A stretch of 42,020 bases of DNA, taken from positions 1 to 42,020 of the IMG/VR virus record IMGVR_UViG_3300010403_000014. The stretch is one strand, 5' to 3'. The notes under the pieces were generated by a model. It did no database searches. It had not been told where the DNA came from and saw only the letters and a program-made list of their open reading frames with translations. The stretch is from a virus. Below are positions 3,956 to 38,686 of this stretch, one piece after another; position 1 is the stretch's first letter; each line of letters starts with the position of its first letter. Both the position numbers and the translations under genes were made by a program.

Positions 3956-4301
3956 AGCTGAATTAGAAGAGAATCCGCTTAAAGCTAAAGTACCAGGAGA
4001 GTTAGCGTACATATTTGCTAGATTCTTTTATAAAGAATGGAATTTAAACCCATCTTGGACCACATACCATAATTTTCGTAAGGTAATTAGAGAACCAAGT
4101 AGTAATAGTAAGTACGAGACACTTATAAGTCAATTAAGTAAATCTATTTACTTTCGTCATCTTGATCTACAGATTGCCGCAGAATTAGCTCTTGATGAGT
4201 TTGCATGGCGAGTAATTCGCAATTATGAGAATGGTAAGAAAGTCGCTAATGGAGATGTTTTTATTGATCAAGATAAATTCATTGAAGAGAAAACGAAATG
4301 A
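3930..4301 (+). CDS. PYI...NGDV family hypothetical protein, divergent copy (123 aa)
   Basis: I choose the TTG at 3930, not an upstream TTG at 3909, because AGGAG lies 7 nt before it and the protein then begins LPYIQRENRAELEEN. This matches the start of the paralogue at 41542 (MPYIKQEDRPELD). Both share a GEL/GLLxY helix, a C-terminal helix ending in Tyr-Glu, and a terminal NGDV[F/Y] box. This copy has about 29 extra residues in the middle and continues past NGDVF to a charged tail. The family is frequent in phages but its function is not known to me. Confidence 0.65.
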   Translation: MPYIQRENRAELEENPLKAKVPGELAYIFARFFYKEWNLNPSWTTYHNFRKVIREPSSNSKYETLISQLSKSIYFRHLDLQIAAELALDEFAWRVIRNYENGKKVANGDVFIDQDKFIEEKTK

Positions 4302-4438
4302 CCATTCACATAGGAGTTTTTATTGGTTACATCTTGTCTTTGACAATGGCCTATAAGATGTGGGGTTTGATGGGATTTTGGTTTACTTTTGGATTGTTGT
4401 TAACTAATGAATTACCAGGAATTACTTATACAAAATGA
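4298..4438 (+). CDS. Small membrane protein (46 aa)
   Basis: Start (ATGA) and stop (ATGA) overlap both neighbours. Nearly all of the sequence is hydrophobic: IGVFIGYILSLTMAY and then WGLMGFWFTFGLLL, suggesting one or two membrane passes. There is no recognised family. Confidence 0.55.
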   Translation: MTIHIGVFIGYILSLTMAYKMWGLMGFWFTFGLLLTNELPGITYTK

Positions 4439-4860
4439 ATACATATAAATGTGGATGTATTACATATACTGAAGGATTCACTATTTGTGCTATACATTTA
4501 CAGGAGAAAATTCTAATGGACGGACAAGAGCTAAAAACAGGGGTTAAAAAAGATGAAGGAAAACCACGCTTTGAATTACTGGCTTATGAAGTTTTATTGG
4601 CAGTGGCCAGGATACTTACTGCAGGAGCCAAGAAATACGAAGATCGCAATTGGGAAAAGGGTATCAGTTATGGACGGTGTTTTGGCGCAGTTCAACGTCA
4701 TCTTACGGAGTGGTGGAACGCTCGATTGGAAGGAAGAGATGGTATCAATCACGCTGATGGAAATGAGTCGCATATTGATCACGCCATCACCGAATTAATG
4801 TTTTTAAGTGCTTATGAAAAGAGAGGAAAACTTGACTTCGACGACCGCCCTACAAAATAA
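4435..4860 (+). CDS. dATP/dGTP diphosphohydrolase-N-terminal-like protein (DUF5664 type)
   Basis: From about residue 38 the product reads KKDEGKPRFELL, then AKKYEDRNWEKG, RHLTEWW and SHIDHAITELMFL. This is the pattern of the phage family named dATP/dGTP diphosphohydrolase N-terminal domain (DUF5664), thought to act on dNTP pools. An internal ATG at 4516 lies 9 nt after AGGAG and would give just the domain. The upstream 27 residues contain a Cys-rich segment (CGCITY...CAIHL), which may be a small metal-binding extension or a separate short peptide read in the same frame. No PurZ gene is present, so there is no case for 2-aminoadenine DNA. Confidence 0.75.
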   Translation: MNTYKCGCITYTEGFTICAIHLQEKILMDGQELKTGVKKDEGKPRFELLAYEVLLAVARILTAGAKKYEDRNWEKGISYGRCFGAVQRHLTEWWNARLEGRDGINHADGNESHIDHAITELMFLSAYEKRGKLDFDDRPTK

Positions 4861-6616
4861 CGAATCAGTTAATCCTACATTTGGTCCAAGTATGTATGGA
4901 TCAGAAGTATTTATTAATTCTTCATTTCATCCACTGACTTATTCTATTCCCACAGTTGTTGATGTAGAAACAGATGAAAAGGATAATTTTGTAGGATTGG
5001 CAGTTTGTCAAGATGCAAGAGATATATTTTATTTTACTAATTTAGAGCTAGTTAAAAAGTTACTTGAAAGATGTCCTTTAATTGGTCATAATGTCAAATT
5101 CGATTTAAAACTTCTTAAGAAATGGGGATTGAATATAAAACCTGAACAATTACATTTTGATACTTGTTTAGCTTCTTATGTGGTAAATACAACAAAGGAA
5201 TCTCATCATTTAAAAGACTTAGGAAAAGAAATTCTAGGAATGACTTGGCCTACATACCGTGAAATGGTTGGATCAGGCAGAAAGAAACAAACTTTAGATA
5301 AGCAAGAAGTTGGTCGGGTGTCCGCTTATTGTGGAATGGATTGCTTAGCCACATTTAAACTTTATCAATATTTTATGCGAATAATGAACCCAACGCAACG
5401 ACATCTATTGAATCATGTTGAGTTGCCCATTTCTAGAATTTTAATGGAAATGGAGCTTAATGGGATTACGATTGACACAGACTACTTGATGAAACTTAAT
5501 TTAGAGTTTAGCGGAAAAATGTTAGACATAGAAGCTGAGTTAAATAAACAATGGTACTCCATTGGTAAAGAAGAAAAATTAAATCCAAATTCTAATCGTC
5601 AAATCGCGGAGTTACTAGAAGCTCAAGGTGCAGTTCTGCCGATGACACAGAAGGGAAATAAAAAAGTTGATAAAGGAACTCTTGAACAATGGAAACAACT
5701 TCCAAGTGTCGCTTTGCTCCTTGAATATAATAAACTTGAAAAATTAGTTTCTACATATACAACCGGATTATTGGAGAAACAACAAAATGGCAAGATATAT
5801 GCGTCGTTCAACCAAATCACGAAAAACGAAAAAGGTTATGAGAGTGGTATATCCACTGGTAGACTCTCTTCTTCGGCCCCGAACCTACAAAACATTCCAG
5901 TTAGGTCTAAAGAAGGTGGTCTTATCCGCAGAGCCTTTATACCGTCTGATGGAAAAGTATTCATTGACGCAGATTATTCTCAAATCGAATACAGATTACT
6001 CGCACACTTTTCTAAAGAACCTAGACTAATTCAAGCATTTATGGAGGAAAAAGATGTTCATGAAGAAACAGGAAGACTTCTTGGCTGCTCGCGTGACGTG
6101 GGGAAAACACTTAATTTCGCCTCCATTTACGGAGCACAAGCTACTAAGATTGCGAAAACTGCTAAAGTCTCTGAACAAGAAGCAGAGAAATTTCTTGGGA
6201 CTTACTGGAAAGTTTTGCCAAGAGTTACTGCTTGGATCAATCGCGTTAAATTTGAAGCGAGGGCCAAGAAGGGCATCTTTACACTTTTACGAAGATGGAT
6301 ACCATTACCAGGTATATCCTCTCAAAACCGATTTGAAAGGATGCACTGGGAGAGAGCCGCAGTAAATTACTGCATCCAAGGATCAGCGGCGGAGCTGATG
6401 AAGCTCGCGTTAATTAAGTTAAAAGAAAGTGGATATGTGCCTGTTTTAACTTGCCACGATGAGTTTTTAATTGAAATCACAAATAATGGTCTTGGTTTAG
6501 AAACAAGTCATGTAAATTTAATTAAAAATATTATGGAATCAGTTGTTAAGCTCGATGTGCCGTTAATTGCCGATATTGGAATTGGTGATAATTGGGCATC
6601 AGCTAAAGGAGACTAG
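4832..6616 (+). CDS. PolA-family DNA polymerase with 3'-5' exonuclease
   Basis: I choose TTG 4832 because GAGAGG precedes it by 5 nt; ATG 4814 and GTG 4808 are in frame and possible. Numbering from this start, the exonuclease motifs are VDVETD (D44, E46), HNVKFD (N87, D91) and YCGMD (Y166, D170). Polymerase motifs are TGRLSSSAPNLQNIP near 342, motif A DADYSQIEYR (D381), motif B R421-K425-F429-Y433 in RDVGKTLNFASIYG, and motif C CHDE (H542-E544). There is no 5' nuclease domain, and the size resembles T7-type replicative polymerases. Phe in motif B is the Pol I-like residue. It is the replicative polymerase partner of the prim-pol/helicase. Confidence 0.93.
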   Translation: MTSTTALQNNESVNPTFGPSMYGSEVFINSSFHPLTYSIPTVVDVETDEKDNFVGLAVCQDARDIFYFTNLELVKKLLERCPLIGHNVKFDLKLLKKWGLNIKPEQLHFDTCLASYVVNTTKESHHLKDLGKEILGMTWPTYREMVGSGRKKQTLDKQEVGRVSAYCGMDCLATFKLYQYFMRIMNPTQRHLLNHVELPISRILMEMELNGITIDTDYLMKLNLEFSGKMLDIEAELNKQWYSIGKEEKLNPNSNRQIAELLEAQGAVLPMTQKGNKKVDKGTLEQWKQLPSVALLLEYNKLEKLVSTYTTGLLEKQQNGKIYASFNQITKNEKGYESGISTGRLSSSAPNLQNIPVRSKEGGLIRRAFIPSDGKVFIDADYSQIEYRLLAHFSKEPRLIQAFMEEKDVHEETGRLLGCSRDVGKTLNFASIYGAQATKIAKTAKVSEQEAEKFLGTYWKVLPRVTAWINRVKFEARAKKGIFTLLRRWIPLPGISSQNRFERMHWERAAVNYCIQGSAAELMKLALIKLKESGYVPVLTCHDEFLIEITNNGLGLETSHVNLIKNIMESVVKLDVPLIADIGIGDNWASAKGD

Positions 6617-6617
6617 T

Positions 6618-6824
6618 ATGGCACTTACACCACTCGTTCCTAGAAGTGATAAAAGATACTGCTATATCTGTGGATCACAAGTTGAGAGGATTGAATTTAC
6701 TGTAAACTATGATGAGTATACAGGAAGTGCTGTAAAATCTGAAATACGTAAATGTCCTAAAGTTAGATTTTTTACTCTTGGTCATCCCGTTACAGAAGCA
6801 GAATGTTACTCTTTACAAGCATAA
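6618..6824 (+). CDS. Small zinc-ribbon-like protein (68 aa)
   Basis: ATG 6618 follows GGAG by 7 nt. The reading frame extends further upstream, but only inside the polymerase gene. The protein has CYIC near residues 15-18 and further Cys residues around 44 and 63, suggesting a single metal knuckle. It lies directly after the polymerase. No family is recognised. Confidence 0.6.
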   Translation: MALTPLVPRSDKRYCYICGSQVERIEFTVNYDEYTGSAVKSEIRKCPKVRFFTLGHPVTEAECYSLQA

Positions 6825-6839
6825 AGGAGATTAAATAAA

Positions 6840-7124
6840 ATGAGCGATGAACAACCAGTAACACCGGAAATTCTTGAAAAGAAGATTCCTAAAATTCAGT
6901 ATGTGTCAATTACACTACACGATGGTCGAAAAGGAATATTTGCTGGACCAGAGTTAATCTCTAATGCAGAACTTACTCTTTCTCCACCACGTTTGGTTTC
7001 TATTGATTTTAGTCAACCTAGAGAGTACCCTAGTCAGCCACAGCCTGAAATCAAGGTTTCTGAGGAGCCGAAGATAGAGGAGGCTAAAAATGATTCTACA
7101 GAATCTCCGACACAACCTAGCTAA
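6840..7124 (+). CDS. Hypothetical protein with acidic/proline-rich tail (94 aa)
   Basis: The start follows AAAGGAG. The N-terminal 60 residues look like a small beta-rich domain (YVSITLHDGRKGIFAGPEL). The C-terminus is low-complexity, rich in Pro, Glu, Gln and Ser. An acidic or proline-rich tail beside replication genes is reminiscent of single-strand-binding or accessory proteins, but this is only a resemblance. It overlaps the next gene by 35 nt. Confidence 0.55.
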   Translation: MSDEQPVTPEILEKKIPKIQYVSITLHDGRKGIFAGPELISNAELTLSPPRLVSIDFSQPREYPSQPQPEIKVSEEPKIEEAKNDSTESPTQPS

Positions 7125-7299
7125 ACTAATTGCTCCTGAGTTAGTAGAACGTTTTAGAATGGCTACTCTAAGTGCTCTTGAAATTTCTAAACTTAGGCAG
7201 TTAAAAAATGAAATAACCACAGTTAAAGAATGTGGATGTATTTGTCAGAAGAAAAAATGTCTAAATAAGCTTACTCTAGAAAAAACATGGCTAAAATAA
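7090..7299 (+). CDS. Hypothetical protein (69 aa)
   Basis: A strong GAGGAGG lies just before the ATG, inside the tail of the previous gene. The product is mainly helical (AKLIAPELVERFRMATLSAL) and ends with a CGCICQKKKC cluster that could bind metal. Some phage proteins with an N-terminal LxxLIAPEL helix are membrane- or replication-associated, but I assign no function. Confidence 0.55.
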   Translation: MILQNLRHNLAKLIAPELVERFRMATLSALEISKLRQLKNEITTVKECGCICQKKKCLNKLTLEKTWLK

Positions 7300-7649
7300 A
7301 GAAAGATTGGAGGAAGAAACTTGATGGCTACTTTATTGCATTTTGTCGCAAAGTTTTTCGATGGAGCACCGCCTATAGAAGTGCAGTTCAGAGCGCGGAA
7401 GAAAAGACTGCCAATGGACTACGATACAGGTGTAAGGCTTGTGGAAATCTTGTTGAACGATCCGAAAAACAGGTCGATCATATTATCCCAGTGGTGGAAC
7501 CAGGAAAAAAATGGTCAGGTTCCTGGGATGACTATAGAGACAGATTGTTTGTGTCTACGGAGAAGTTGCAAGTCTTGTGTAGAGGGTGCCATAAAAGTAA
7601 AACCGCTGAAGAAAACAAAAGGAGAAAATTATGCAAAAAGAATGCATAG
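7287..7649 (+). CDS. HNH endonuclease
   Basis: The 120-residue product has CKAC near residue 50, the HNH core VDHIIPV near 63-69, RLFVSTEKLQVLC, and the second Cys pair with the terminal His-Asn region (CRGCHKSKTAEEN). This is a complete small HNH nuclease of the kind found beside phage replication or packaging genes. It sits far from the terminases here, so a role as a free-standing homing or host-DNA nuclease is as likely as packaging. The ribosome binding site is weak, and the gene overlaps the previous one by 13 nt. Confidence 0.85.
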   Translation: MAKIKKDWRKKLDGYFIAFCRKVFRWSTAYRSAVQSAEEKTANGLRYRCKACGNLVERSEKQVDHIIPVVEPGKKWSGSWDDYRDRLFVSTEKLQVLCRGCHKSKTAEENKRRKLCKKNA

Positions 7650-7762
7650 CACCAGGAATCGAGCATAAACTTCAATTTGTTATTGCGGCGCATGGATACC
7701 AATGTTTTTCTTGTATACTATGTGATTATACTGAAGATGTTATGGAGGATTCTTTACCGTGA
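7631..7762 (+). CDS. Small Cys-rich hypothetical protein (43 aa)
   Basis: The ATG follows GGAG. The product contains CFSCILC around residues 25-31 plus an early Cys and His, suggesting a metal-binding knuckle. The stop overlaps the next GTG start. No family is recognised. Confidence 0.5.
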   Translation: MQKECIAPGIEHKLQFVIAAHGYQCFSCILCDYTEDVMEDSLP

Positions 7763-8007
7763 ATGAAATAAATATACCAATTAGACAAGATGTGGAAATT
7801 CCTCAAATTAATAGTCAAATTTTATTTGAGTATCAATTTGATAGGTTTAGCCCTAAGATAACTTTTCAATTAGATCCATCATCCACACTTTCTGAGGTTT
7901 TGGAGAGTTTCGAATCTTTTTTACGAGCTTCTGGATACGTATTTGATGGAATGATAGATATCATTGAGAATGAACAAATAAAAGGAGCTACAAATGAGTC
8001 AGCTTAA
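7759..8007 (+). CDS. Hypothetical protein (82 aa)
   Basis: The GTG start overlaps the preceding stop and follows GGAGG. The sequence (FEYQFDRFSPKITFQLDPSS and then a helix TLSEVLESFESFLRASGY) looks like a small alpha/beta fold. It overlaps the exonuclease gene by 14 nt, and together they probably form one translational unit. Similar short proteins occur in phage replication blocks, with unknown role. Confidence 0.6.
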   Translation: MNEINIPIRQDVEIPQINSQILFEYQFDRFSPKITFQLDPSSTLSEVLESFESFLRASGYVFDGMIDIIENEQIKGATNESA

Positions 8008-8674
8008 GGTGTTGTTCTTGGACATAGAAGCATCCAACCTTTCAGCATCAGTTGGATACACATTAGCAATCGGCTACAAATGGGCGCATGAAAAAACTGC
8101 GAAAGTGCTAGATTTGAGTACCCATCCAGGGTCAAAAACAACTGATGATCGAAACTTACTTCGGGCCTTTGAGCCAATCTTTAGTGAAGCTGATATTGTG
8201 GTTCATCATTTTGGTCAATATTATGATATTCCGTTTCTTCAAACTCGTCGATTAATTCATGGTATGAAACCTATGCCAGTTGTACAACAAGTCGATACGT
8301 GGCGTATTGCTAAGAAACGTCTTAAATTTCACTCTAATCGACTCGATGCTATTTTAAAGGCATTACATTGTCCTTATGAGAAAACCGCGATTGACTTCAA
8401 TTTATGGATTGACGCAAGTGCAGGAGATAGGAAAGCATTAAAATATATTGCTCATCATTGTAAAATGGATGTTTTGGTTCTTGAATGGGTATATAATCAT
8501 ATTAAGGCTGTTTGGGATCAACATCCTCGTAGTATTGTGAGTCGCGATGAATCAGTATGCAGAGTTTGCGGAGGTCGTGCTAATTCTAAAGGACTTAGAG
8601 CTACTGCACAAAATCAATATAGACGCATGGTTTGTACTAAATGTGGGTTTAATTGGAAAGGGGGTAAACTATAA
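7994..8674 (+). CDS. DnaQ-like DEDDh 3'-5' exonuclease with zinc ribbon
   Basis: RNase H-like fold: FLDIEAS supplies D10 and E12, VVHHFGQYYDIPFL supplies D78, a DTW block follows near 101, and AHHCKMD gives H154 and D159 (DEDDh spacing). The C-terminus adds CRVCGG and CTKCGFNW (C189, C192, C214, C217), a zinc ribbon probably used to bind nucleic acid. As the polymerase already has its own proofreading domain, this free exonuclease may work in recombination, repair or RNA/primer removal. It follows AAAGGAG with an overlapping start. Confidence 0.85.
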   Translation: MSQLKVLFLDIEASNLSASVGYTLAIGYKWAHEKTAKVLDLSTHPGSKTTDDRNLLRAFEPIFSEADIVVHHFGQYYDIPFLQTRRLIHGMKPMPVVQQVDTWRIAKKRLKFHSNRLDAILKALHCPYEKTAIDFNLWIDASAGDRKALKYIAHHCKMDVLVLEWVYNHIKAVWDQHPRSIVSRDESVCRVCGGRANSKGLRATAQNQYRRMVCTKCGFNWKGGKL

Positions 8675-8907
8675 TGAGTATTGATCCACGTCCTGTATTT
8701 GAGTATGATCAAGTTCTTACGGTTCATGATTTATTGGCCATTCGTAATGGGTACTGGTACCAATTTGATTCAACTCCACGCTGGAGAGTTTGGAAACGTT
8801 TACAATTCTATATCGCCATTGGAGTTTTAAATAGTTTACTAGTCTGGATTAAAAATAGAAAGTTAGTGAGAAAAGGAGAAGATAATGACACCTATAACAC
8901 GATTTAA
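8674..8907 (+). CDS. Hypothetical protein with one membrane segment (77 aa)
   Basis: The ATG overlaps the exonuclease stop (TAATG) behind GGGGG. The N-terminal half is soluble and rich in aromatic residues. Residues 45-61 (FYIAIGVLNSLLVWI) form one likely transmembrane helix, followed by a basic tail. It overlaps the protease gene by 23 nt, so it may be translated together with it. Confidence 0.55.
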   Translation: MSIDPRPVFEYDQVLTVHDLLAIRNGYWYQFDSTPRWRVWKRLQFYIAIGVLNSLLVWIKNRKLVRKGEDNDTYNTI

Positions 8908-9637
8908 AGTATTAATACTAAGTTTTTTTGCTGTTGGCATTTTAGGTGGTTGTGCATCAACCGAGCGTTTTGTAAAAGTTGCTGATAAGTCTGTACAAAA
9001 AACTACAATTGTTCAAGTTACAGCAGTTGTTGAAGAACTTCAATTCACAATTACTAAAAAAGGATTTGATATTAAAAAATCCACCGCCACAGTTAGGTAT
9101 CTTGGTGCTGGAGTATTTATTAGTCCAAATGGTCATATTCTTACTTGTGCTCATCTTTTTAATCATGGAATTGTAAAATCCATTACTGTTAATAGTTATG
9201 ATGGATATTCTTATGGTGCTGAATTACTTTTTTCAGAAAAAAATAGAGATTTAGCTTTACTTTATATTAATGAAAAGACTCCTGATTATGCTAAACTTGC
9301 TGATCCAAGGTATCTTAAAGTTGGGCAGGAAGTTATAGCGGTAGGTAATCCATTGGGATTAGAGTTTTCAGTAACACATGGCATTATTAGTGCATTAAAT
9401 CGCGATTTTAAAGATGGATATAATGTAACACAAAGTGACGCATTTATTAATCCTGGTAATAGTGGTGGACCGCTTTTTAATCTTAAAGGTGAGCTTGTTG
9501 GAATTAACAGCTTTATAATTCCTCCTGTTAATGCACCCATTTTTACAGGTGCGGGATTCAGTGTTCAATCAGGACAAATTATAGAATTTTTAACTAGATA
9601 CCGCGGATTAAATAAAGCATTTCCTAAATGGAGGTAA
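8885..9637 (+). CDS. HtrA/DegP-like trypsin-fold serine protease, lipoprotein
   Basis: The 250-residue protein starts with a lipoprotein signal: a basic start, a hydrophobic stretch and the lipobox LGGC with Cys 23. The mature part is an S1C/HtrA-type protease with catalytic His 90 (TCAHLF), Asp 122 (NRDLALL) and Ser 193 (NPGNSGGPL), each in its family context. Also present are GVFISPNGHILT and VGNPLGLEFSVTHGIIS. There is no room for a PDZ domain. It should be anchored in the cell envelope, probably facing the periplasm. AAGGAG precedes the ATG. It lies upstream of the endolysin. Roles in lysis, superinfection exclusion or degradation of envelope proteins are all inference. Confidence 0.9.
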   Translation: MTPITRFKVLILSFFAVGILGGCASTERFVKVADKSVQKTTIVQVTAVVEELQFTITKKGFDIKKSTATVRYLGAGVFISPNGHILTCAHLFNHGIVKSITVNSYDGYSYGAELLFSEKNRDLALLYINEKTPDYAKLADPRYLKVGQEVIAVGNPLGLEFSVTHGIISALNRDFKDGYNVTQSDAFINPGNSGGPLFNLKGELVGINSFIIPPVNAPIFTGAGFSVQSGQIIEFLTRYRGLNKAFPKWR

Positions 9638-9639
9638 GT

Positions 9640-9840
9640 ATGGCAGATAAACTTGATTTTAATGAAGCAGTTTTAATTAATCAAATAAAAACAGCAGAAG
9701 ACGTTATTAAACAATCACAAGAGCAAGTAGCCAAAGCTCAGTCTCAAATTCAACAACAATTAGGAGTTTTAGCACTTGCCAAACATTTGTTACAAAACTA
9801 TAAATTTTCTGGGGTTGTAAGTGAATCAAAAGAAAGCTAA
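9640..9840 (+). CDS. Coiled-coil hypothetical protein (66 aa)
   Basis: ATG 9640 lies 5 nt after GGAGG; an in-frame ATG at 9628 has no such site. The product is almost entirely helical, with a Gln/Ala-rich stretch (EQVAKAQSQIQQQLGVLALA) that predicts a coiled coil. It resembles short proteins often found near lysis genes, but no function is assigned. Confidence 0.6.
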   Translation: MADKLDFNEAVLINQIKTAEDVIKQSQEQVAKAQSQIQQQLGVLALAKHLLQNYKFSGVVSESKES

Positions 9841-10036
9841 ACAAATTAGAAGGGTTATGAGAAAAGAAGCAAAAGCAGAACGAACTTATCGTTTTGTAAC
9901 TCACCCTAAACCCATGAAAAATTTGTTTGGAGAGCCTCTTTTACGCTATACTTTTCAGTATATTTGTGATGAAGGAAAGACACTACTAAAGTTTGCTAAA
10001 AAAGTTCATGACCAGACGGGGGTATTACCACAATGA
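9821..10036 (+). CDS. Small basic hypothetical protein (71 aa)
   Basis: The GTG start lies inside the previous gene. The N-terminus is strongly basic (KKAKQIRRVMRKEAKAERTY), followed by a phage-typical sequence beginning TYRFVTHPKPM. It ends overlapping the next ATG. The family is common in phages but has no known function that I recall. Confidence 0.6.
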   Translation: MNQKKAKQIRRVMRKEAKAERTYRFVTHPKPMKNLFGEPLLRYTFQYICDEGKTLLKFAKKVHDQTGVLPQ

Positions 10037-10221
10037 TGATAGACGATGATAGTTATGGTATAGGGTATGCTGCTGGATATGATGATGGACGCCATGCAGG
10101 ATACTCCGATGGATGGGAAGATGCAAGCCGCGATTATGAAGAAAGAATTGGACGATTAATGGCTGAAGTTAGGCTTATGGAAGCAAGAGTAAATGTGCTT
10201 TCTAAGAAAATGGACTCATAG
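10033..10221 (+). CDS. Hypothetical protein, Gly/Asp/Tyr-rich then coiled coil (62 aa)
   Basis: GGGGG precedes the ATG. Residues 8-30 show a repeating G-Y-x-x-G-x-x-x-G pattern (GIGYAAGYDDGRHAGYSDGW), typical of small phage proteins with Gly-Tyr repeats. A helical coiled-coil tail follows (EERIGRLMAEVRLMEARV). Function is unknown. Confidence 0.55.
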   Translation: MMIDDDSYGIGYAAGYDDGRHAGYSDGWEDASRDYEERIGRLMAEVRLMEARVNVLSKKMDS

Positions 10222-10316
10222 TGGTTTGTCCAGTTCACTGGGGTAGGGCACTAATGCAAGTTTTATGGGAGGACTTTAAAAAATGGGTTTATCATTTGAT
10301 GACGAAGCCACTTTAG
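10221..10316 (+). CDS. Possible short protein (31 aa)
   Basis: GTG overlaps the previous stop (TAGTG), and the short frame MVCPVHWGRALMQVLWEDFK continues into the next gene. It could be translated by reinitiation, but it lacks a ribosome binding site. The segment may simply be the leader that carries the GGGAGG for the gene at 10283. Confidence 0.25.
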   Translation: MVCPVHWGRALMQVLWEDFKKWVYHLMTKPL

Positions 10317-10438
10317 AAGGCCAATGGGTTGTAAATTCCGAGACTGGAGAAGAATACATGCTTGATTTGAGAACAGGTAATATTTTAGCTAAAAAGACTC
10401 AATTAGGTGAATGGATCAATCCGGAGATTGAAAAATGA
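10283..10438 (+). CDS. Hypothetical protein (51 aa)
   Basis: ATG 10283 follows GGGAGG by 10 nt. The product (WVVNSETGEEYMLDLRTGNI) looks like a small beta protein. Its stop overlaps the next ATG (ATGA). No family is recognised. Confidence 0.5.
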   Translation: MGLSFDDEATLEGQWVVNSETGEEYMLDLRTGNILAKKTQLGEWINPEIEK

Positions 10439-10629
10439 ATACCGAAAGTATAAAACCAAGTTTACATATTGTTTTTAATTCAAATGGTGGATATCAAATT
10501 GTTTTAGAAGGTTCTTTATTCGAATTAGAGAATTGTATCAGAGGTTTAATGATTGACAGTGAAATTGGAAGACTAGTTAAAACTATAGCTCAATGTGCAA
10601 CTGCTGAGGCCGACATTTATGGCAAGTAA
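10435..10629 (+). CDS. Hypothetical protein (64 aa)
   Basis: It starts inside the previous stop codon. The sequence reads as a beta hairpin (LHIVFNSNGGYQIVLEG) and then a helix with two Cys residues. It overlaps the endolysin start by 11 nt, so the two are probably translationally coupled. Function is unknown. Confidence 0.55.
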   Translation: MNTESIKPSLHIVFNSNGGYQIVLEGSLFELENCIRGLMIDSEIGRLVKTIAQCATAEADIYGK

Positions 10630-11062
10630 AGAGATAGAAGACACATGCACATATATAAGAGACAAGTGGGAGGAGATAAAACGTGATTTTATTGAGGCGA
10701 GTCCTGGAAAGTATCTCGCGCTTACTACCACGCACCGAACGCCCAGAGAACAGTTTGAGCTATATAAGCAAGGCCGAACAATGGGTGTGGATGGAAAATG
10801 GTATGTCCAAGATAAAGCGAAAATTGTTACTAATGTTGATGGTACTGATGTGGTCGGGGCTCATAATTACTATCCTAGTCGGGCTATCGATGTAGCCGTC
10901 GTAGATAATCAAACCGGAAAATATCTTTGGGATGAAAAATGGTACGCACCGTTAGGAGCTATAGCAAAATATTATAATTTAACATGGGGTGGTGATTGGA
11001 AATCAATTAAAGATTTTCCTCACTTAGAAGTTCCAAATTATAGAGAGTATCAAGAGGTATAA
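10619..11062 (+). CDS. Endolysin, M15-type peptidase (L-alanyl-D-glutamate / D-Ala-D-Ala class)
   Basis: ATG 10619 (MASKEIEDTC) has GAGG about 10 nt upstream; the in-frame ATG at 10595 has none. The 147-residue product shows the M15 fold: LALTTTHRTPREQFELYKQGR at 33-53, the zinc ligands in AHNYYPSRAIDV (H82, D91), and WGGDW...DFPHLEV with H135 as the third ligand. The HNxxPSxAxD spacing is the variant with two extra residues between His and Asp. It cleaves peptidoglycan stem peptides. There is no signal peptide, so a holin is needed; the 3TM holin is elsewhere, at 41102. Confidence 0.87.
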   Translation: MASKEIEDTCTYIRDKWEEIKRDFIEASPGKYLALTTTHRTPREQFELYKQGRTMGVDGKWYVQDKAKIVTNVDGTDVVGAHNYYPSRAIDVAVVDNQTGKYLWDEKWYAPLGAIAKYYNLTWGGDWKSIKDFPHLEVPNYREYQEV

Positions 11063-11063
11063 A

Positions 11064-11222
11064 ATGGACTATCAAAATGAGGCAGAATTTAAAGTCAACA
11101 CAATTAATATGTATAGGCACGGAGGTGTTGGAAATGTGCTTGATTGTTTAATTGCCATGTTAGAATCGCAGTTAATTATTACTAGAAAATTAAAAGAACT
11201 TATAGAACATACAGGAGATTAA
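11064..11222 (+). CDS. Hypothetical protein (52 aa)
   Basis: AGAGG lies 5-9 nt before the ATG, just after the endolysin. The product is a mainly helical small protein (NVLDCLIAMLESQLIITRKL). No domain is recognised. Confidence 0.5.
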   Translation: MDYQNEAEFKVNTINMYRHGGVGNVLDCLIAMLESQLIITRKLKELIEHTGD

Positions 11223-11241
11223 AATTTCTGAGGAGATGAAG

Positions 11242-11361
11242 ATGGGAAGACAAGATCGAACGATAAGTATAGGTGGAATACTTTTAATGTGTTTAGGAAT
11301 TGGCCTATTTTTAGGTTATGGCCTTAAATGGACTTTAGATACTATTCTTAGACTATCATAG
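11242..11361 (+). CDS. Small single-pass membrane protein (39 aa)
   Basis: AGGAG lies 6 nt before ATG 11242; a second in-frame ATG is at 11236. After a basic start the sequence is hydrophobic (ISIGGILLMCLGIGLFLGYG), giving one clear transmembrane helix. Its position between the endolysin and other small genes makes it a possible lysis accessory protein. Confidence 0.55.
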   Translation: MGRQDRTISIGGILLMCLGIGLFLGYGLKWTLDTILRLS

Positions 11362-11370
11362 GAGACTAAA

Positions 11371-11574
11371 ATGAATGAAAGAGACGATGAAGGATATTTG
11401 ATTGGATCTAAAGCGTATGAAATTAAAACGATTAGAACGGCATTAGAACGTATCGCTGACGCACAAGAAAAGCTCCTTTCAATTGCTGAAGCATCTCAGA
11501 AAGAACGTAATGAACTTAGCGATAAGATGAAACAAGCATTTAGAGTTCAAGGAATGAGTAATGAGGCTAAATAA
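11371..11574 (+). CDS. Coiled-coil hypothetical protein (67 aa)
   Basis: GGAG precedes the ATG. The product is charged and mostly helical (IRTALERIADAQEKLLSIAE), predicting a coiled coil. No function is assigned. Confidence 0.55.
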   Translation: MNERDDEGYLIGSKAYEIKTIRTALERIADAQEKLLSIAEASQKERNELSDKMKQAFRVQGMSNEAK

Positions 11575-11788
11575 AAAACACATTGGACAGCTCTTTGATG
11601 TTCGCGGTAGCGATGGTAGTTGGTTTTACCAATTAGTAGATGTTAAAGGTTCTGATCTTTTATTTTATTGTGATGGAAACTACGAAATTGATACCAATAA
11701 ATATGCAGATTGGCGTCCATTTGGATGTAAAGAACACACTAAAAAAGAAATAGTCTATGGTTGGAAAACTGCTAGAAGGGCTTACTAA
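11561..11788 (+). CDS. Hypothetical protein (75 aa)
   Basis: It overlaps the previous gene by 14 nt. The product is rich in aromatic residues (GSWFYQLVDVKGSDLLFYCD), suggesting a small SH3- or Tudor-like beta barrel, as seen in many short phage proteins. Its stop overlaps the next ATG. Confidence 0.55.
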   Translation: MRLNKKHIGQLFDVRGSDGSWFYQLVDVKGSDLLFYCDGNYEIDTNKYADWRPFGCKEHTKKEIVYGWKTARRAY

Positions 11789-12183
11789 TGCATTGCTACG
11801 GTGATGAAGACTTTTCTGATGAGATGTTTTCACAAGTAGATGCTGCAGCTTGGTATATTGGTGAAAGAATGGCTAATTGGTTTCGTATTCCTGTTAGACA
11901 AATGAAAGAGAAATTTGGTACAGTTCGAGTTTACTGTGGTTTTGGATTTAGTTCAGTTTACTCTATTTGGCGTCCTCAACATATGTGGGTACCTAAATGG
12001 TGGCCTTGGAGCCTTGATTTAAAAGTGTCTAAATATGTAATGTCTTTAATTAATCGTATGATAGTTCCTATACAAATATCCGGATACCGATATTTCTATA
12101 AGAAAGCAATTAAAAAATGGCCTTATCTAAAAGCAGAAATTCTTTGTTGTGCTGATTATCCTGAATACTTAAAGGAGATTTAA
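11788..12183 (+). CDS. Hypothetical phage protein with KEKFGTVRVY motif (131 aa)
   Basis: The block VRQMKEKFGTVRVYCGFG near residues 36-53 occurs in a widespread but uncharacterised phage family. The rest is rich in Trp and Tyr (WRPQHMWVPKWWPW) and ends with two vicinal Cys. There is no catalytic motif. It starts in the stop codon of its neighbour. Confidence 0.6.
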   Translation: MHCYGDEDFSDEMFSQVDAAAWYIGERMANWFRIPVRQMKEKFGTVRVYCGFGFSSVYSIWRPQHMWVPKWWPWSLDLKVSKYVMSLINRMIVPIQISGYRYFYKKAIKKWPYLKAEILCCADYPEYLKEI

Positions 12184-12330
12184 ATGAAAAAATATTGCGT
12201 AGTTTACTCAATTACTATATCAACTGACACTGTTATTGAAGCCACAACTAGAATTGAAGCTGGAAATAAACTTAAAGAAGTTATTCCCGATGCCGCAATT
12301 GAAGACATGTGGGAAATTAAAGATAAATGA
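12184..12330 (+). CDS. Hypothetical protein (48 aa)
   Basis: AAAGGAG lies before the ATG, which follows the previous stop directly. The sequence (YCVVYSITISTDTVIEATTR then a helix) resembles the small DUF-type proteins with a beta-alpha-beta layout in phages. Its stop overlaps the next ATG. Confidence 0.5.
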   Translation: MKKYCVVYSITISTDTVIEATTRIEAGNKLKEVIPDAAIEDMWEIKDK

Positions 12331-12392
12331 AGCCTTTTTTAATCATATTTGGTGCAATTATTGGAATGGCTGTTTGGCTAGGAATTTGCTAA
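12327..12392 (+). CDS. Very small membrane peptide (21 aa)
   Basis: The ATG overlaps the previous stop (ATGA). The whole product (MKPFLIIFGAIIGMAVWLGI plus a final Cys) is one hydrophobic helix. It may be a lysis or membrane micropeptide, but such a short frame needs expression evidence. Confidence 0.35.
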   Translation: MKPFLIIFGAIIGMAVWLGIC

Positions 12393-12428
12393 TTGATAAG
12401 CTATTTAGTTGGTTACAAAGGAGATAAT

Positions 12429-12569
12429 ATGCTAGGTCTATTTTTAGAAGCTGCAATATTATTAGCAGTTGTATTTGAGGCTTATATAAGCTGGAAAGCC
12501 TACCAACTTATGAAATATGAAGCAGATAGACAACGAATCTCTAGAATACTACGAAAAGTACGTCGATGA
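12429..12569 (+). CDS. Small membrane protein, N-terminal anchor (46 aa)
   Basis: AAGGAG lies before the ATG. One N-terminal transmembrane helix (FLEAAILLAVVFEAYI) is followed by a basic helical tail (YEADRQRISRILRKVRR). This topology is like that of an inner-membrane spanin or a small holin; the lipoprotein at 13200 could be its outer partner, which is inference. It ends overlapping the next ATG. Confidence 0.5.
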   Translation: MLGLFLEAAILLAVVFEAYISWKAYQLMKYEADRQRISRILRKVRR

Positions 12570-12865
12570 AAGAAACTAAATGGCTTTCTATTATTTGGAA
12601 AGGTAAGATGGCTGAAATAAATTCAAAAGGAAAACTAAGAAGCATGGCGCAGCCAAGAAAAAGCAAGAAAATTCAGTGGTGTTTTCATGATGACCCATCA
12701 TGGTGTACACCTAAATGCCCTAAAAAAACCCGTACATTTACATCGAATCCAGTTACTTTTACTATCACACGGAGGTACACATCATGGTACGACGTAAGGC
12801 ATGCAGGAAAGTGGTTTTTGATGACCACATGGCACTTTCTTATGAGGAAGTCCTTGGAGTATTAA
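12566..12865 (+). CDS. Hypothetical protein with Cys pair (99 aa)
   Basis: It begins in the stop codon of the previous gene. Residues 1-65 look like a real small protein (basic, with WCFHDDPSWCTPKCPKKTR, which could bind metal). The last 27 residues lie in a different frame over the start of the better-supported gene at 12784 and look like run-on translation. Either the genes overlap by 82 nt or a stop has been lost by mutation. Confidence 0.45.
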   Translation: MKETKWLSIIWKGKMAEINSKGKLRSMAQPRKSKKIQWCFHDDPSWCTPKCPKKTRTFTSNPVTFTITRRYTSWYDVRHAGKWFLMTTWHFLMRKSLEY

Positions 12866-13014
12866 AGTATTTTCGACTCCCCAAACAAGATTTCGATAAC
12901 TGGATGGTAGGTCAGACTTGCCCCTTGACAAATGGAAAAATCGGAGTATACTGGTATGACCTTAATCGGTATGTTCAATGGAAGCTCCAAGGAAAATTGC
13001 CGATATTCGATTGA
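12784..13014 (+). CDS. Hypothetical protein (76 aa)
   Basis: GGAGG lies 8-9 nt before ATG. The sequence YEEVLGVLKYFRLPKQDFDNWMVGQTC and VYWYDLNRYVQWKLQG looks like a small helical domain, perhaps a DNA-binding winged helix as in excisionase-like proteins (W-Y-D-L-x-R-Y). That similarity is weak. A strong sigma-70-like promoter lies within its 3' end. Confidence 0.55.
   Translation: MVRRKACRKVVFDDHMALSYEEVLGVLKYFRLPKQDFDNWMVGQTCPLTNGKIGVYWYDLNRYVQWKLQGKLPIFD
12925..12952 (+). promoter_or_regulatory. Sigma-70-type promoter, rightward
   Basis: TTGACA at 12925-12930 and TATACT at 12947-12952 are separated by 16 nt. It lies in the 3' part of the gene at 12784 and would drive the small genes from 13066 to 13739, including the lipoprotein. 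The TATACT box matches the promoters at 36096 and 37469. Confidence 0.6.
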
Positions 13015-13076
13015 TGAGTATCAATGGTTTTCATTTGGCAAAATTGTTTTCTAGGCGGGTAAAAGATGAAATATGA
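13014..13076 (+). CDS. Possible micro-protein (20 aa)
   Basis: The ATG overlaps the previous stop (TGATG). The frame encodes MSINGFHLAKLFSRRVKDEI and overlaps the next start by 11 nt. No ribosome binding site is evident. It is listed because the junction allows reinitiation. Confidence 0.25.
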   Translation: MSINGFHLAKLFSRRVKDEI

Positions 13077-13203
13077 ACCAAGGGACGTTAAAGAGTCAAA
13101 ACCGTGTAAAAACGACCATAAGTACCAATTTGTTGAAGTTGACAAAAAAGGTATTAAATGGCAATATTGTAAAGATTGTGATCGGAGGCTTTTAGTCGGA
13201 TGA
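13066..13203 (+). CDS. Small zinc-ribbon-like protein (45 aa)
   Basis: Cys 14 and His 18 (PCKNDHKY) are followed by YCKDC near 34-38, a C/H-x-C-x-x-C arrangement typical of phage micro zinc ribbons. Its start is preceded by AGGCGGG, and its stop overlaps the lipoprotein start. It is probably transcribed from the promoter at 12925. Confidence 0.55.
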   Translation: MKYEPRDVKESKPCKNDHKYQFVEVDKKGIKWQYCKDCDRRLLVG

Positions 13204-13469
13204 AACTTATTATTTTTAGCTTACTTTTAGTAACTCTTTCAGGCTGTGTAGGTTTCCAAGGTCCAACTCCTGCTGATCGAAACTTCACAAAACAAACCTG
13301 GACCTATGATTGTTGTAATCCAGGACTTAGTGAAGGTACTAAAGATATGTGTAAGATGGCCGCAACAGCTCGTAACCATGTTTTAATTGATAACTATGGC
13401 AATCGGTATAAGTTTATTTGGAGTGATTGTAAAATAGGAGATGAACCGTGGCAGAAATGGGAAAAGTAA
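13200..13469 (+). CDS. Small lipoprotein, Cys-rich (89 aa)
   Basis: The N-terminus MKLIIFSLLLVTLSGC is a clear lipoprotein signal with lipobox LSGC (Cys 16). The mature part carries five further Cys (CC, CK, DC positions), consistent with a disulfide-bonded periplasmic protein. In a Gram-negative host it would sit in the outer or inner membrane, and a spanin-like role with a nearby membrane protein (12429 or 13448) is possible but unproven. It starts within the previous stop. Confidence 0.65.
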   Translation: MKLIIFSLLLVTLSGCVGFQGPTPADRNFTKQTWTYDCCNPGLSEGTKDMCKMAATARNHVLIDNYGNRYKFIWSDCKIGDEPWQKWEK

Positions 13470-13579
13470 GCTTAATTTTAATGTCTAGTTTATTGGGTTG
13501 GGTCTTATTTCAGGTAGCGACTTACATTTATGATCTTTTTGAGGCTAATTTAATTGATTGGGAGAATGAGGATGAATAA
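13448..13579 (+). CDS. Small membrane protein (43 aa)
   Basis: GTG 13448 follows GGAG and overlaps the lipoprotein gene. One transmembrane helix (VSLILMSSLLGWVLFQVATYI) is followed by an acidic tail (DWENEDE). Its overlap with the lipoprotein gene makes it a candidate partner of that protein. Confidence 0.5.
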   Translation: MAEMGKVSLILMSSLLGWVLFQVATYIYDLFEANLIDWENEDE

Positions 13580-13739
13580 AGAAATTGTGATTAAAGAGGT
13601 AGAGAATGGGTACCAAGTAATGGTTCATGATACTACAAGAAATGGTATTTATGTGTTTAAATCGGGTGAGATCTTTTTGATGCTTGAAACGGTGGGAAAG
13701 TGGATAAATGGGAAACCAGTTAAGGTTAAGGAAAATTAA
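13572..13739 (+). CDS. Hypothetical protein (55 aa)
   Basis: ATG 13572 is preferred because GAGG lies immediately upstream and it overlaps the previous stop. The sequence (IVIKEVENGYQVMVHD ... GIYVFKSGE) is a small beta domain with the same E-x-x-N-G-Y-x-[VI] start as the gene at 38932. It is the last rightward gene, and its stop overlaps the stop of the converging gene. Confidence 0.55.
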   Translation: MNKEIVIKEVENGYQVMVHDTTRNGIYVFKSGEIFLMLETVGKWINGKPVKVKEN

Positions 13740-13972
13740 CTAGTTCGTCTCTTTTCGCAACTATCACAACCACATCTTTTACGTTCTTCGTCTTTATCTA
13801 AGGTTGCTTTAGGTTCCACTTTCCAAGGGAACCAAATGAATGTAGCCCTACACTCATAACAATGGGCTTTGTATACTACTGCCAAATCACGCCTACCAAA
13901 CGCAGTTTTACAAACAGGACAATGCGCCTGTTCTATATTGTTTAAATCTTTGTCCTCATTGGAGTACCACAC
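13736..13972 (-). CDS. Zinc-ribbon protein (78 aa), last gene of the late arm
   Basis: Two Cys pairs form a zinc ribbon (CPVC near residues 18-21 and CYEC near 38-41), and the C-terminus holds RCGCDSC. The GTG start has AGGA 9 nt upstream. It lies after the holin-like gene and collides tail-to-tail with the last rightward gene, with stop codons overlapping by 4 nt and no strong hairpin between the arms. Confidence 0.6.
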   Translation of the reverse strand: MWYSNEDKDLNNIEQAHCPVCKTAFGRRDLAVVYKAHCYECRATFIWFPWKVEPKATLDKDEERKRCGCDSCEKRRTS

Positions 13973-13983
13973 GGATTCATATC

Positions 13984-14217
13984 CTAATGTCTAAAATACG
14001 CTACTGCTACGCCTGTAATAGAAACGAGTAACGTAATTCCTCCCCATATCATAGATCTAATCGTAATTGCTGCATTAGCTTCATCTTTTGTTGTTTGGTT
14101 TAAAGTTGCCACTTGAACTAATAAAGCTGGAATCTTATCTGAAGTCAACAGATCCACCTTTCTTTCGAGTTGTAAAATCTTCTCTAAAATTAATCCTTCC
14201 ACTGTTTGTCTAGCCAC
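13984..14217 (-). CDS. Holin candidate, XhlA-like (77 aa)
   Basis: An N-terminal coiled coil (EGLILEKILQLERKVDLL) and a C-terminal transmembrane helix (MIWGGITLLVSITGVAVAYF) form the layout of XhlA/hemolysin-type phage holins. It lies at the far end of the virion operon, where such genes often sit. The genome also has a 3TM holin at 41102, so this could be an antiholin or a second holin. The family match is by topology only. Confidence 0.6.
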   Translation of the reverse strand: MARQTVEGLILEKILQLERKVDLLTSDKIPALLVQVATLNQTTKDEANAAITIRSMIWGGITLLVSITGVAVAYFRH

Positions 14218-14227
14218 AGTACGTCTC

Positions 14228-15454
14228 CTATTTTATCAACTTATGAATCCCACCAAGACCAGCACCAATTGTGCCATATCTCAATGCAGTTCCAATCAGG
14301 TTTCTAACTTTACCAACCGTACTACCCTTAGCCTCAGTTTTTAATCTCTGAATCAGACTCATTAGGACTTCTTTCTTAGCTTTTGTTTCTTCCGGTAAAG
14401 ATTTGAGGGCATCTTGAATTTCATTAAATTTTTCAAGTTCTTCACCAATTGGCACACGTTTTGGTGTTGATTTTAGCTTATTAATTAAACTGATAAGTCT
14501 TTCTTTCTCAGCTTTAGCTTCTTTTGGAAGTGCTGTTTTTACATCTTGAATTTCTCTGAATTTACTTAATTCTTCTGCTACTTTTGGGTGTGCTCTAGTT
14601 ATTGCCTCATCAATTTTAGCAACACCTTTATTAATAAAAGCCTCTTCTTCTGGAAGTAAATTTCCACGCTTTGTGACTTGAGCAATTTTTTTGAGGTTTT
14701 GAAGTCCACTGGTCTCCATTGAAGCTAAGAGTTCATCTGGTGATTTTTCAGAAATAGCCTTCATTGTGTTAGCAAAATCAGTAGTATCTTTAGCAGCCTC
14801 AGGAATTTTATTCATTGCTAATCCTGCTTCAGATTCGGCTTTTCCTATTTCAGGTCTAATTGCTTTATCGAGTTCTTCAATAATTGATTGTTTTTGCTTA
14901 TACTTTAAAGGCAAGTCTTTAATTTTTTGTTGGGCCGCCGCAATTTCTGGCTCAAATGTTTCAAATCCTTTTTTGGCGACAGTATTTAATTCTTCTAAAC
15001 TACTTCTTATTTGACGTTCTTTAATAGGTAAATTTTTAATGGTTTGTTGGGCTGCTTCAATTTCTTCTGCATTTGGGCCTTTAAGTAAACTTTTCCCTAA
15101 TTTTTTTACTAAGGAACCACCTTTTTTAACTAAAGATCCTGCTCCTCTAACTCCTGCGGCCATTTCAGGTACAGCTTTTAATCCTGTCGCTGCGCTGATA
15201 AATTCTTCAGGCATAGAAACTGGTGTCGCGGCGAGAGCAGTTAAATGAGGATTCTTTTGACCAAATTTAGATTCAGCCATTATATCTGCTTGTTGTTCAA
15301 AACCTGCTTTAGTAACAGGAGTTAAACTCACATCCTGTAAGCCAGGTTCATTAACAATACTAGGATCAAGAGGAAACTTAGTTTGTGGACCCGTTGGCTC
15401 TTCTGTTTCTATTTCGTAAGTGCCGTTTTCGGTATCAACTTGATATTTAGCCAT
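14228..15454 (-). CDS. Internal virion / ejection-type protein with helical repeats (408 aa)
   Basis: A short N-terminal segment (MAKYQVDTENGTYEIET) of the kind seen in phage internal proteins is followed by long amphipathic helices. Two internal duplications are visible: AAQQ-x-IK-x-LP at about 129-157 and 168-196, and EIQD...LP...KE-x-L-x-SLI at about 295-327 and 338-371. A Gly-rich hydrophobic end (GTIGAGLGGIHKLI) suggests membrane interaction. Its place after the tail protein, with two similar genes, fits podoviral ejection proteins. No lytic domain is seen. Confidence 0.6.
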   Translation of the reverse strand: MAKYQVDTENGTYEIETEEPTGPQTKFPLDPSIVNEPGLQDVSLTPVTKAGFEQQADIMAESKFGQKNPHLTALAATPVSMPEEFISAATGLKAVPEMAAGVRGAGSLVKKGGSLVKKLGKSLLKGPNAEEIEAAQQTIKNLPIKERQIRSSLEELNTVAKKGFETFEPEIAAAQQKIKDLPLKYKQKQSIIEELDKAIRPEIGKAESEAGLAMNKIPEAAKDTTDFANTMKAISEKSPDELLASMETSGLQNLKKIAQVTKRGNLLPEEEAFINKGVAKIDEAITRAHPKVAEELSKFREIQDVKTALPKEAKAEKERLISLINKLKSTPKRVPIGEELEKFNEIQDALKSLPEETKAKKEVLMSLIQRLKTEAKGSTVGKVRNLIGTALRYGTIGAGLGGIHKLIK

Positions 15455-37987: not shown

Positions 37988-38686
37988 ATGAATAAAGTAA
38001 TATTCACAATTAGTGTATTGGCTAGCTTTATTAGTTTAAGCTATGCTAATAATGTAACAGATGACTTAACACCAGGAGACTCACCAGAAGTTGGATCAAT
38101 CTTGTATTATGGAACACCAAGTGGAAATAGTCAGGGAACATGGGCTTTGCCTGAGACAATTCCAGGGCTTCAAGGGCCGCAAGGCGAGCAAGGAATCCAA
38201 GGAGAACAAGGGATTCAAGGTGAAAAAGGTGATCAAGGAGAGCAAGGTGTAGCAGGGCAAGATGGTATCGATGGTTTAAATGGTATTGATGGAGTTAAAG
38301 GAGATCGCGGTGATAACGGAGCAGATGTTGATCCAGCAACCGTCAATAACCTTCAAACTCAGATAACCAATAATACTAATGCAACAGACATCTTAAATCA
38401 AAACCTCCAAGCTACTAACAGTCGTGTAGATGGTTTGGAGTCTAGAGTCGGTGATTTAGAGAAAACCAAAGTAATTCTTGATGGATCATTAAGACTTGCG
38501 GATAGTAAATACATGACAGTTTATATGTTCAATAGTTATAATTGGTTTAGAAGGCACAATGACAGTTTCGGTGTACGGTTTGTGATTAAATGTGGACAAT
38601 CGTATGAAGAAACTTTGATTGAAAAACAAAATAAGCAACTAGATCAAATGCGGCAACTACTTAGAGAAGTTTATAGAAAACTATAA
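37988..38686 (+). CDS. Exported collagen-like protein (232 aa)
   Basis: Residues 1-20 form a Sec signal peptide (KVIFTISVLASFISLSYA). A short Asn/Thr/Pro-rich region follows, then a collagen-like G-x-y block at about 60-111 (GLQGPQGEQGIQGEQGIQGE and onward; Gly every third residue, 18 times). A heptad coiled coil (QTQITNNTNATDILNQNLQA) and a C-terminal domain with W and YRKL end follow. AAAGGAG precedes the ATG. Collagen-like fibres in phages normally lack signal peptides; this one should be exported by the host. Role unknown. Confidence 0.75.
   Translation: MNKVIFTISVLASFISLSYANNVTDDLTPGDSPEVGSILYYGTPSGNSQGTWALPETIPGLQGPQGEQGIQGEQGIQGEKGDQGEQGVAGQDGIDGLNGIDGVKGDRGDNGADVDPATVNNLQTQITNNTNATDILNQNLQATNSRVDGLESRVGDLEKTKVILDGSLRLADSKYMTVYMFNSYNWFRRHNDSFGVRFVIKCGQSYEETLIEKQNKQLDQMRQLLREVYRKL

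Follow-up and report, generated by a model that had tools for sequence, protein, structure and literature searches.

A predicted PDZ-less HtrA-like serine protease with a putative lipid anchor is encoded in a conserved gene slot of an uncultured group of ~42-kb phages

Bacterial proteases of the HtrA/Do type (MEROPS S1C), such as DegP, DegQ, DegS, and MucD, are exported to the cell envelope and combine a trypsin-type domain, a His-Asp-Ser triad and the motif NPGNSGGPL with typical C-terminal PDZ domains. The PDZ domain of DegS mainly inhibits this protease, whereas DegP requires its PDZ domain for activation (PMC6686036). Natural DegS is further characterized by an N-terminal transmembrane (TM) helix as its anchor and by the cutting of RseA-like substrates. 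Hyperactive or over-activated DegP kills E. coli, and death on over-activation is mainly due to the degradation of exported proteins that have just been synthesised (PMC7529758). Phages with an annotated HtrA-like protease are already on record, namely 16-3 (p036), RL2RES (gp259), the RHph phages, and AF3, and a trypsin-like serine protease has been reported as common to a cluster of alphaproteobacterial phages (PMC10783043). A functional study of a phage HtrA protease was not found in the open-access literature, which need not be exhaustive.

The window analysed here, i.e. the whole stretch of DNA, is a virus record of 42,020 bases. Terminase, portal, major capsid protein, and tail genes are located on the minus strand, and a DNA polymerase, a primase/helicase, exonucleases, and an HNH nuclease are encoded on the plus strand. 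The presence of TerL, portal, major capsid protein, and DNA polymerase confirms the phage context that an earlier note on this DNA had assumed for a protease gene on the plus strand (Table 1). Compared with isolated phages, the terminase reaches at most 30% identity and the major capsid protein about 32%. tRNA genes, which were sought in the window as a clue to the host, were not found. A collagen-like tail-fibre-type protein is encoded on the plus strand (37988-38686), apart from the minus-strand structural module.

The protease gene is an intact open reading frame with an ATG start and a GGAG ribosome-binding site 6 nt upstream. Sequence and structural model indicate that its product is a single HtrA-like (S1C-type) serine protease domain, which belongs to the HtrA/Do family by its trypsin-type domain and triad and lacks the typical C-terminal PDZ domain. 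In a Pfam profile search, residues 74-207 matched Trypsin_2 (PF13365; E=9.4e-30) with 104.7 bits, well above the cut-off of 27.6 bits, which supports the HtrA/DegP-like domain proposed in the earlier note. The Do family profile TIGR02037 (NCBIfam) was matched with E=1.8e-47, but only at profile positions 16-223 of 434, and the score of 162 bits lies under the curated cut-off of 416, as is expected because the PDZ domains are absent. The best PHROG matches were 11383 (function unknown; E=1.3e-45) and 9683 (protease; E=1.1e-21). The former is a family of longer proteins, as the match spans positions 148-349 of 462. A PDB search with the sequence retrieved solved structures of HtrA, MucD, and DegQ, and the sequence was no closer to DegS than to DegQ/DegP/MucD. 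The matches of the profile search, which had been suggested as a check, are thus proteases and not structural phage proteins.

When 39 HtrA-type sequences from phages and bacteria were aligned, His90, Asp122, and Ser193 fell in invariant columns, so that the triad had been read correctly as intact; the serine is located in the GNSGG core of the NPGNSGGPL motif. An AlphaFold2 model built from these 39 aligned sequences reached a mean pLDDT of 87.9 and a pTM of 0.82. Foldseek searches with this model gave DegQ (for example 3stj, E=4.7e-18), DegP, plant Deg1, and human HtrA1 as top matches, and the engineered DegS-deltaPDZ was also in the list. The query-normalised TM-scores of the structural matches were about 0.65-0.7 because the N-terminal 30 residues are modelled at low confidence. 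Structure prediction, set beforehand as a check, accordingly yielded a trypsin/HtrA fold, and the objection that such a fold might be missing fails. The absence of a PDZ domain was also confirmed, as no profile match was obtained and the chain stops about 15 residues past the protease domain, at about residue 250. Like the engineered DegS-deltaPDZ, the phage protein is therefore a PDZ-less, single HtrA protease domain that is predicted to be membrane-tethered. In bacterial DegP-type proteases the LA-loop region is longer, whereas the phage protease has a helix and a compact hairpin at this position in the model.

The first 23 residues, with a charged N-terminus and a hydrophobic stretch, are predicted to be a signal peptide ending in ILGGC. 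The lipobox recognized in the earlier note fits a broad PROSITE-type lipoprotein pattern at Cys23. Only two of the 110 window reading frames of at least 60 aa match this pattern, the protease and 13200-13469. A strict lipobox ([LVI][ASTVI][GAS]C) is not fitted by the LGGC of the window, but it is fitted by L099 and by the sister phage L002 (LSGC), whose protease is 86% identical to that of the window. Between these two phages, the signal peptide has diverged with a dN of 0.39 and a dS of 0.78 (dN/dS ~0.5) while the cysteine is kept, and the retention of LSGC in the sister phage despite this divergence supports the lipobox. For the mature protease, dN is 0.06-0.08 and dS 0.73-0.76, with a dN/dS of ~0.08-0.10 both for residues 23-70 and from residue 71 to the end; the mature protease is under strong purifying selection.

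An N-terminus resembling an export signal was present in every relative examined, but its type varies. The broad pattern was matched in L002, L096, L099, L146, and L147, although for L146 an ordinary signal peptide would explain the N-terminus just as well. In L097 (QTGC) and L098 (FPSC), the cysteine is correctly placed in a poorer context and the broad pattern was not matched. L100 and L148 have no cysteine and a TM-anchor-like N-terminus, and L149 is a more divergent trypsin-like protein with a Sec-type signal. Thus, the membrane-anchored lipoprotein postulated previously is backed by the lipobox in the window, but a lipid anchor is not universal among the relatives; export appears to be conserved and the type of anchor appears to vary. 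In E. coli, sorting of lipoproteins to the inner or outer membrane is decided by the '+2 rule'. By this rule, Ala24 would route the protease to the outer membrane, but it may not be the rule of the host, and a periplasmic location would presuppose a diderm host. The second predicted lipoprotein (13200-13469, plus strand, 89 aa) has a lipobox LSGC followed by a YDCC motif and is kept in L002 and L097; it is possibly an o-spanin or an exclusion protein.

The closest described phage-encoded counterparts, the Rhizobium and Sinorhizobium phage proteases of 16-3 (p036), RHph_TM3_3_14B, RHph_X2_25, RL2RES (gp259), and AF3, are also short, PDZ-less, and HtrA-like with an N-terminal export-type segment. 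They differ from the window protease by an identity of only 25-30%, by GQSGG or GMSGG in place of GNSGG, and by their gene neighbourhood, and a lipobox was not seen in the four of them that were aligned. In a first tree with 36 bacterial sequences, seven phage proteases including that of the window grouped in a clade of their own (100/98), and 16-3 p036 and its relatives formed a separate clade (100/96). When three more phage sequences were included, nine of ten grouped together (97/84), and all ten did so at weak support (63/80). Among the matches listed, the best bacterial sequences showed a core identity of 38-49% (35-48% in the comparison with bacterial HtrA/Do proteases) and came from many phyla, and none was a close bacterial donor. 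An old acquisition from bacteria would fit these sequence data. Three features are new compared with the annotated phage proteases: a lipid tether is predicted, the gene is near-core in a group of uncultured phages, and its slot is kept while the neighbours change.

A search for TerL relatives yielded 33 contigs, each of which was then searched for Trypsin_2. Among the contigs of at least 35 kb with a terminase identity of at least 43%, the window included, eight of nine encode the protease (window, G001, G002, G003, G004, G011, G025, and G035) and G037 lacks it. Shorter contigs are fragments and uninformative on absence; one of them, G033 (31 kb), contains a divergent trypsin-like protein. 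In G037, the exonuclease is present and followed by an unrelated gene, so that the absence is real and the protease is not indispensable. The protease is a near-core gene of this ~42-kb phage group rather than a one-off acquisition. In G011 (L147), the usual small genes flank a protease that has a lipobox-like N-terminus, is only about 38% identical to that of the window, and is of unsure position in the tree. This protease may have changed very fast, or a different HtrA-type protease may have replaced the original one; in both cases an enzyme of this kind still occupies the slot. Searches of viral contigs with one or two sequences had retrieved only the sister phage and one distant match, as their patterns lay in the N-terminus, which is variable, and an alignment of the core recovered the relatives.

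Among 50,697 isolated phage records searched, about eight convincing HtrA-type records were found, mostly from Rhizobium and Sinorhizobium phages. The earlier statement that such proteases are unusual in phages is therefore true for isolated phages but not for the group to which the window belongs. Several candidates were rejected as bacterial sequence: in MW462191.1 cytochrome c maturation genes adjoin, MT835589.1 contains a full PDZ-type HtrA of high-GC type, and 'phage' records of Salmonella, Acinetobacter, Staphylococcus, Listeria, and Enterococcus were judged bacterial by annotation or by a full bacterial-type match. Owing to bacterial HtrA genes in records filed as phages, public counts of 'phage HtrA' are inflated.

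Comparison of seven phage loci revealed that the protease follows an RNase H-like exonuclease in all seven neighbourhoods, which makes the exonuclease a conserved landmark. A small protein is usually encoded between the two, its frame overlapping or abutting the protease; in the window, the frame of the 77-aa protein overlaps the protease start by 23 bases, and this neighbour retrieved the sister phage as sole match when used as a query. Downstream, the coiled-coil-like and basic small-protein families follow in five of the seven neighbourhoods. At least eight other phages likewise encode a protease in this slot. The genes around it are less constant. The DNA polymerases are of two very different types (22-24% vs 34-40% identity to that of the window), and the exonuclease, by eye, is also of two types. 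In the lysis slot, the window, L002, and L096 have an M15 peptidase, L097 and L099 an M23-like peptidase (by motif), and L098 a different enzyme. Polymerase, exonuclease, and endolysin genes thus appear to be swapped between phages while the protease stays. In two of the seven loci, G005 and G006, terminase and capsid have no detectable relation to those of the window, which indicates that the protease travels with the exonuclease neighbourhood and not with the virion genes.

Table 1. Features of the protease locus in the 42,020-base window.
Feature	Position	Strand	Evidence
RNase H-like exonuclease (DNA polymerase exonuclease subunit type)	7994..8674	+	PF13482 2.3e-12, phrog_403 5.9e-38
77-aa protein, function unassigned	8674..8907	+	Synteny clustering, family in 5/7 neighbourhoods
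PDZ-less HtrA-like protease, 250 aa, predicted lipoprotein	8885..9637	+	Pfam, NCBIfam, PHROG, PDB, AF2/Foldseek, purifying selection
Predicted signal peptide and lipobox I-L-G-G-C, Cys23 predicted lipidation site, +2 = Ala	8885..8953	+	Pattern; LSGC in sister phage
Helix plus long beta hairpin near the N-terminus (strands 40-57 and 60-78 of the model)	8954..9100	+	AF2 secondary structure, alignment
Catalytic His90	9152..9154	+	Invariant in 39-sequence alignment
Catalytic Asp122	9248..9250	+	Invariant in 39-sequence alignment
Catalytic Ser193, motif NPGNSGGPL	9461..9463	+	Invariant in 39-sequence alignment
~70-aa coiled-coil-like small protein (coiled-coil by eye)	9628..9840	+	Family common to 5/7, directly 3' of protease
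71-aa basic small protein	9821..10036	+	Family common to 5/7
Endolysin, M15-type peptidase	10595..11062	+	PF13539 5.9e-9, phrog_2649 1.1e-16

As stated in the earlier note, the protease gene precedes that of the endolysin and has the same direction. The distance is about 0.96 kb, several small reading frames lie in between, and the true start of the endolysin is probably near 10625. Co-expression of the protease with the replication block was argued from the overlap of the upstream gene with the protease start. Scans of positions 4000-14500 gave no excess of promoters (39 sites vs 36.7 in shuffled sequence) or of terminators (6 vs 5.1). Downstream of the endolysin, a 58-aa protein with one likely transmembrane stretch, conserved in L002, is encoded at 12393-12569 (plus strand); it is possibly the holin, as no holin was otherwise identified.

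The preferred reading, with a probability of roughly 0.6, is that of an envelope-acting protease used in infection, the benefit of which would be a loss of receptor supply or a weakening of the envelope. The protease would be expressed from the strand that also carries the phage replication genes. It would then cross the inner membrane, receive a lipid at Cys23, and stay bound to a membrane on the side facing away from the cytoplasm. Beyond this predicted export and anchoring, the constitutive activity, the timing, the target, and the benefit are steps that we infer. Without a PDZ domain, the enzyme would have no obvious switch and would presumably be active on folding, and absence of the domain probably entails constitutive activity; since the activation of DegP requires its PDZ domain, loss of this domain alone is no proof of it. 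During infection, the protease would most likely cut host envelope proteins, especially those that are unfolded or have just been exported, and the host would lose envelope biogenesis to the phage. The phage could profit from a loss of receptor supply, resulting in superinfection exclusion, or from an envelope weakened at lysis.

A more far-reaching proposal is tentative: the phages of the ~42-kb clade would seize the host envelope by means of an indispensable HtrA protease, tethered and without a switch, that degrades newly exported host proteins or receptors. If true, it would represent an undescribed host-takeover strategy that is kept amid swapped replication and lysis genes. Known phage attack on the envelope is mainly directed at peptidoglycan and membranes at lysis, and an exported, tethered, near-core protease would amount to proteolytic control of the envelope during infection. 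A natural PDZ-free HtrA would also allow testing how much regulation prevents cell killing.

Alternatively, the protease might help in lysis by clearing an envelope obstacle, such as outer-membrane-to-peptidoglycan tethers or a lysis inhibitor, together with the endolysin and thereby replace or join a spanin. In the window and in L002, the endolysin gene follows the protease gene in the same orientation at about 1 kb, and in most relatives a lysis-type gene (M15, M23-like, or other enzyme) is near the protease. Both arrangements agree with such a function, and an outer-membrane anchor, as Ala at +2 would specify by the E. coli rule, would position the protease like an o-spanin. This is nevertheless regarded as unlikely, as the overlap joins the protease to replication-side genes rather than to the endolysin, which is swapped among the relatives and lies beyond several small reading frames, and the anchor is of the TM type in L100 and L148. 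Given the replication-side placement and the variable endolysin slot, position by itself does not speak for a role in lysis. A signalling role as in DegS, in which cleavage of an anti-sigma factor or other envelope sensor would switch on or disable the host envelope stress response, is distinctly unlikely. DegS is also a membrane-anchored HtrA with a mainly inhibitory PDZ domain (PMC6686036), Foldseek matched the model to DegS-deltaPDZ structures as well, and the relatives L100 and L148 look TM-anchored. However, the sequence is no nearer to DegS than to DegQ/DegP/MucD.

Even more doubtful is a function in quality control, by which misfolded exported proteins would be removed in infection or the folding of phage-encoded exported proteins would be aided. 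The protease domain does belong to a quality-control family and the phage encodes the second predicted lipoprotein at 13200-13469, but the PDZ domains that serve DegP/DegQ in substrate capture and cage assembly are missing and HtrA proteases are already present in hosts. Phages also need maturation proteases for virions or proheads. An enzyme of this kind would not be expected to have an export signal or to be encoded apart from the structural module and on the other strand. The protease is moreover common to G005 and G006, in which capsid and terminase have no detectable relation to those of the window, which makes this explanation very improbable. Bacterial contamination or an assembly artefact, of which the many bacterial sequences among the 'phage' database matches to the protease are a reminder, is hardly credible for the window: phage genes flank the protease on both sides, the same arrangement is found in independent records from different metagenomes, and the protease clusters with other phage proteases.

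Further differences between the relatives were observed in the vicinity of the slot. DNA polymerase A genes of two very different types are found at one position in neighbourhoods that otherwise closely resemble each other (4808-6616 in the window and the counterparts in L096-L100), and the endolysin slot is located at 9378-9797 in L097, 9231-9629 in L098, and 8897-9328 in L099. A gene with a CSAGLLRSP motif, by eye resembling low-molecular-weight phosphotyrosine phosphatases, is present in L002 (5409-5792) and L014 (8691-9098), and none was seen in the window. An RNA-ligase-like gene (EKIDG, by eye) is encoded near the protease and exonuclease in L002 (407-997), L096, L146 (785-1405), and L149 (2018-2614), and in the window its place is taken by a different gene, encoding 82 aa, at 7759-8007.
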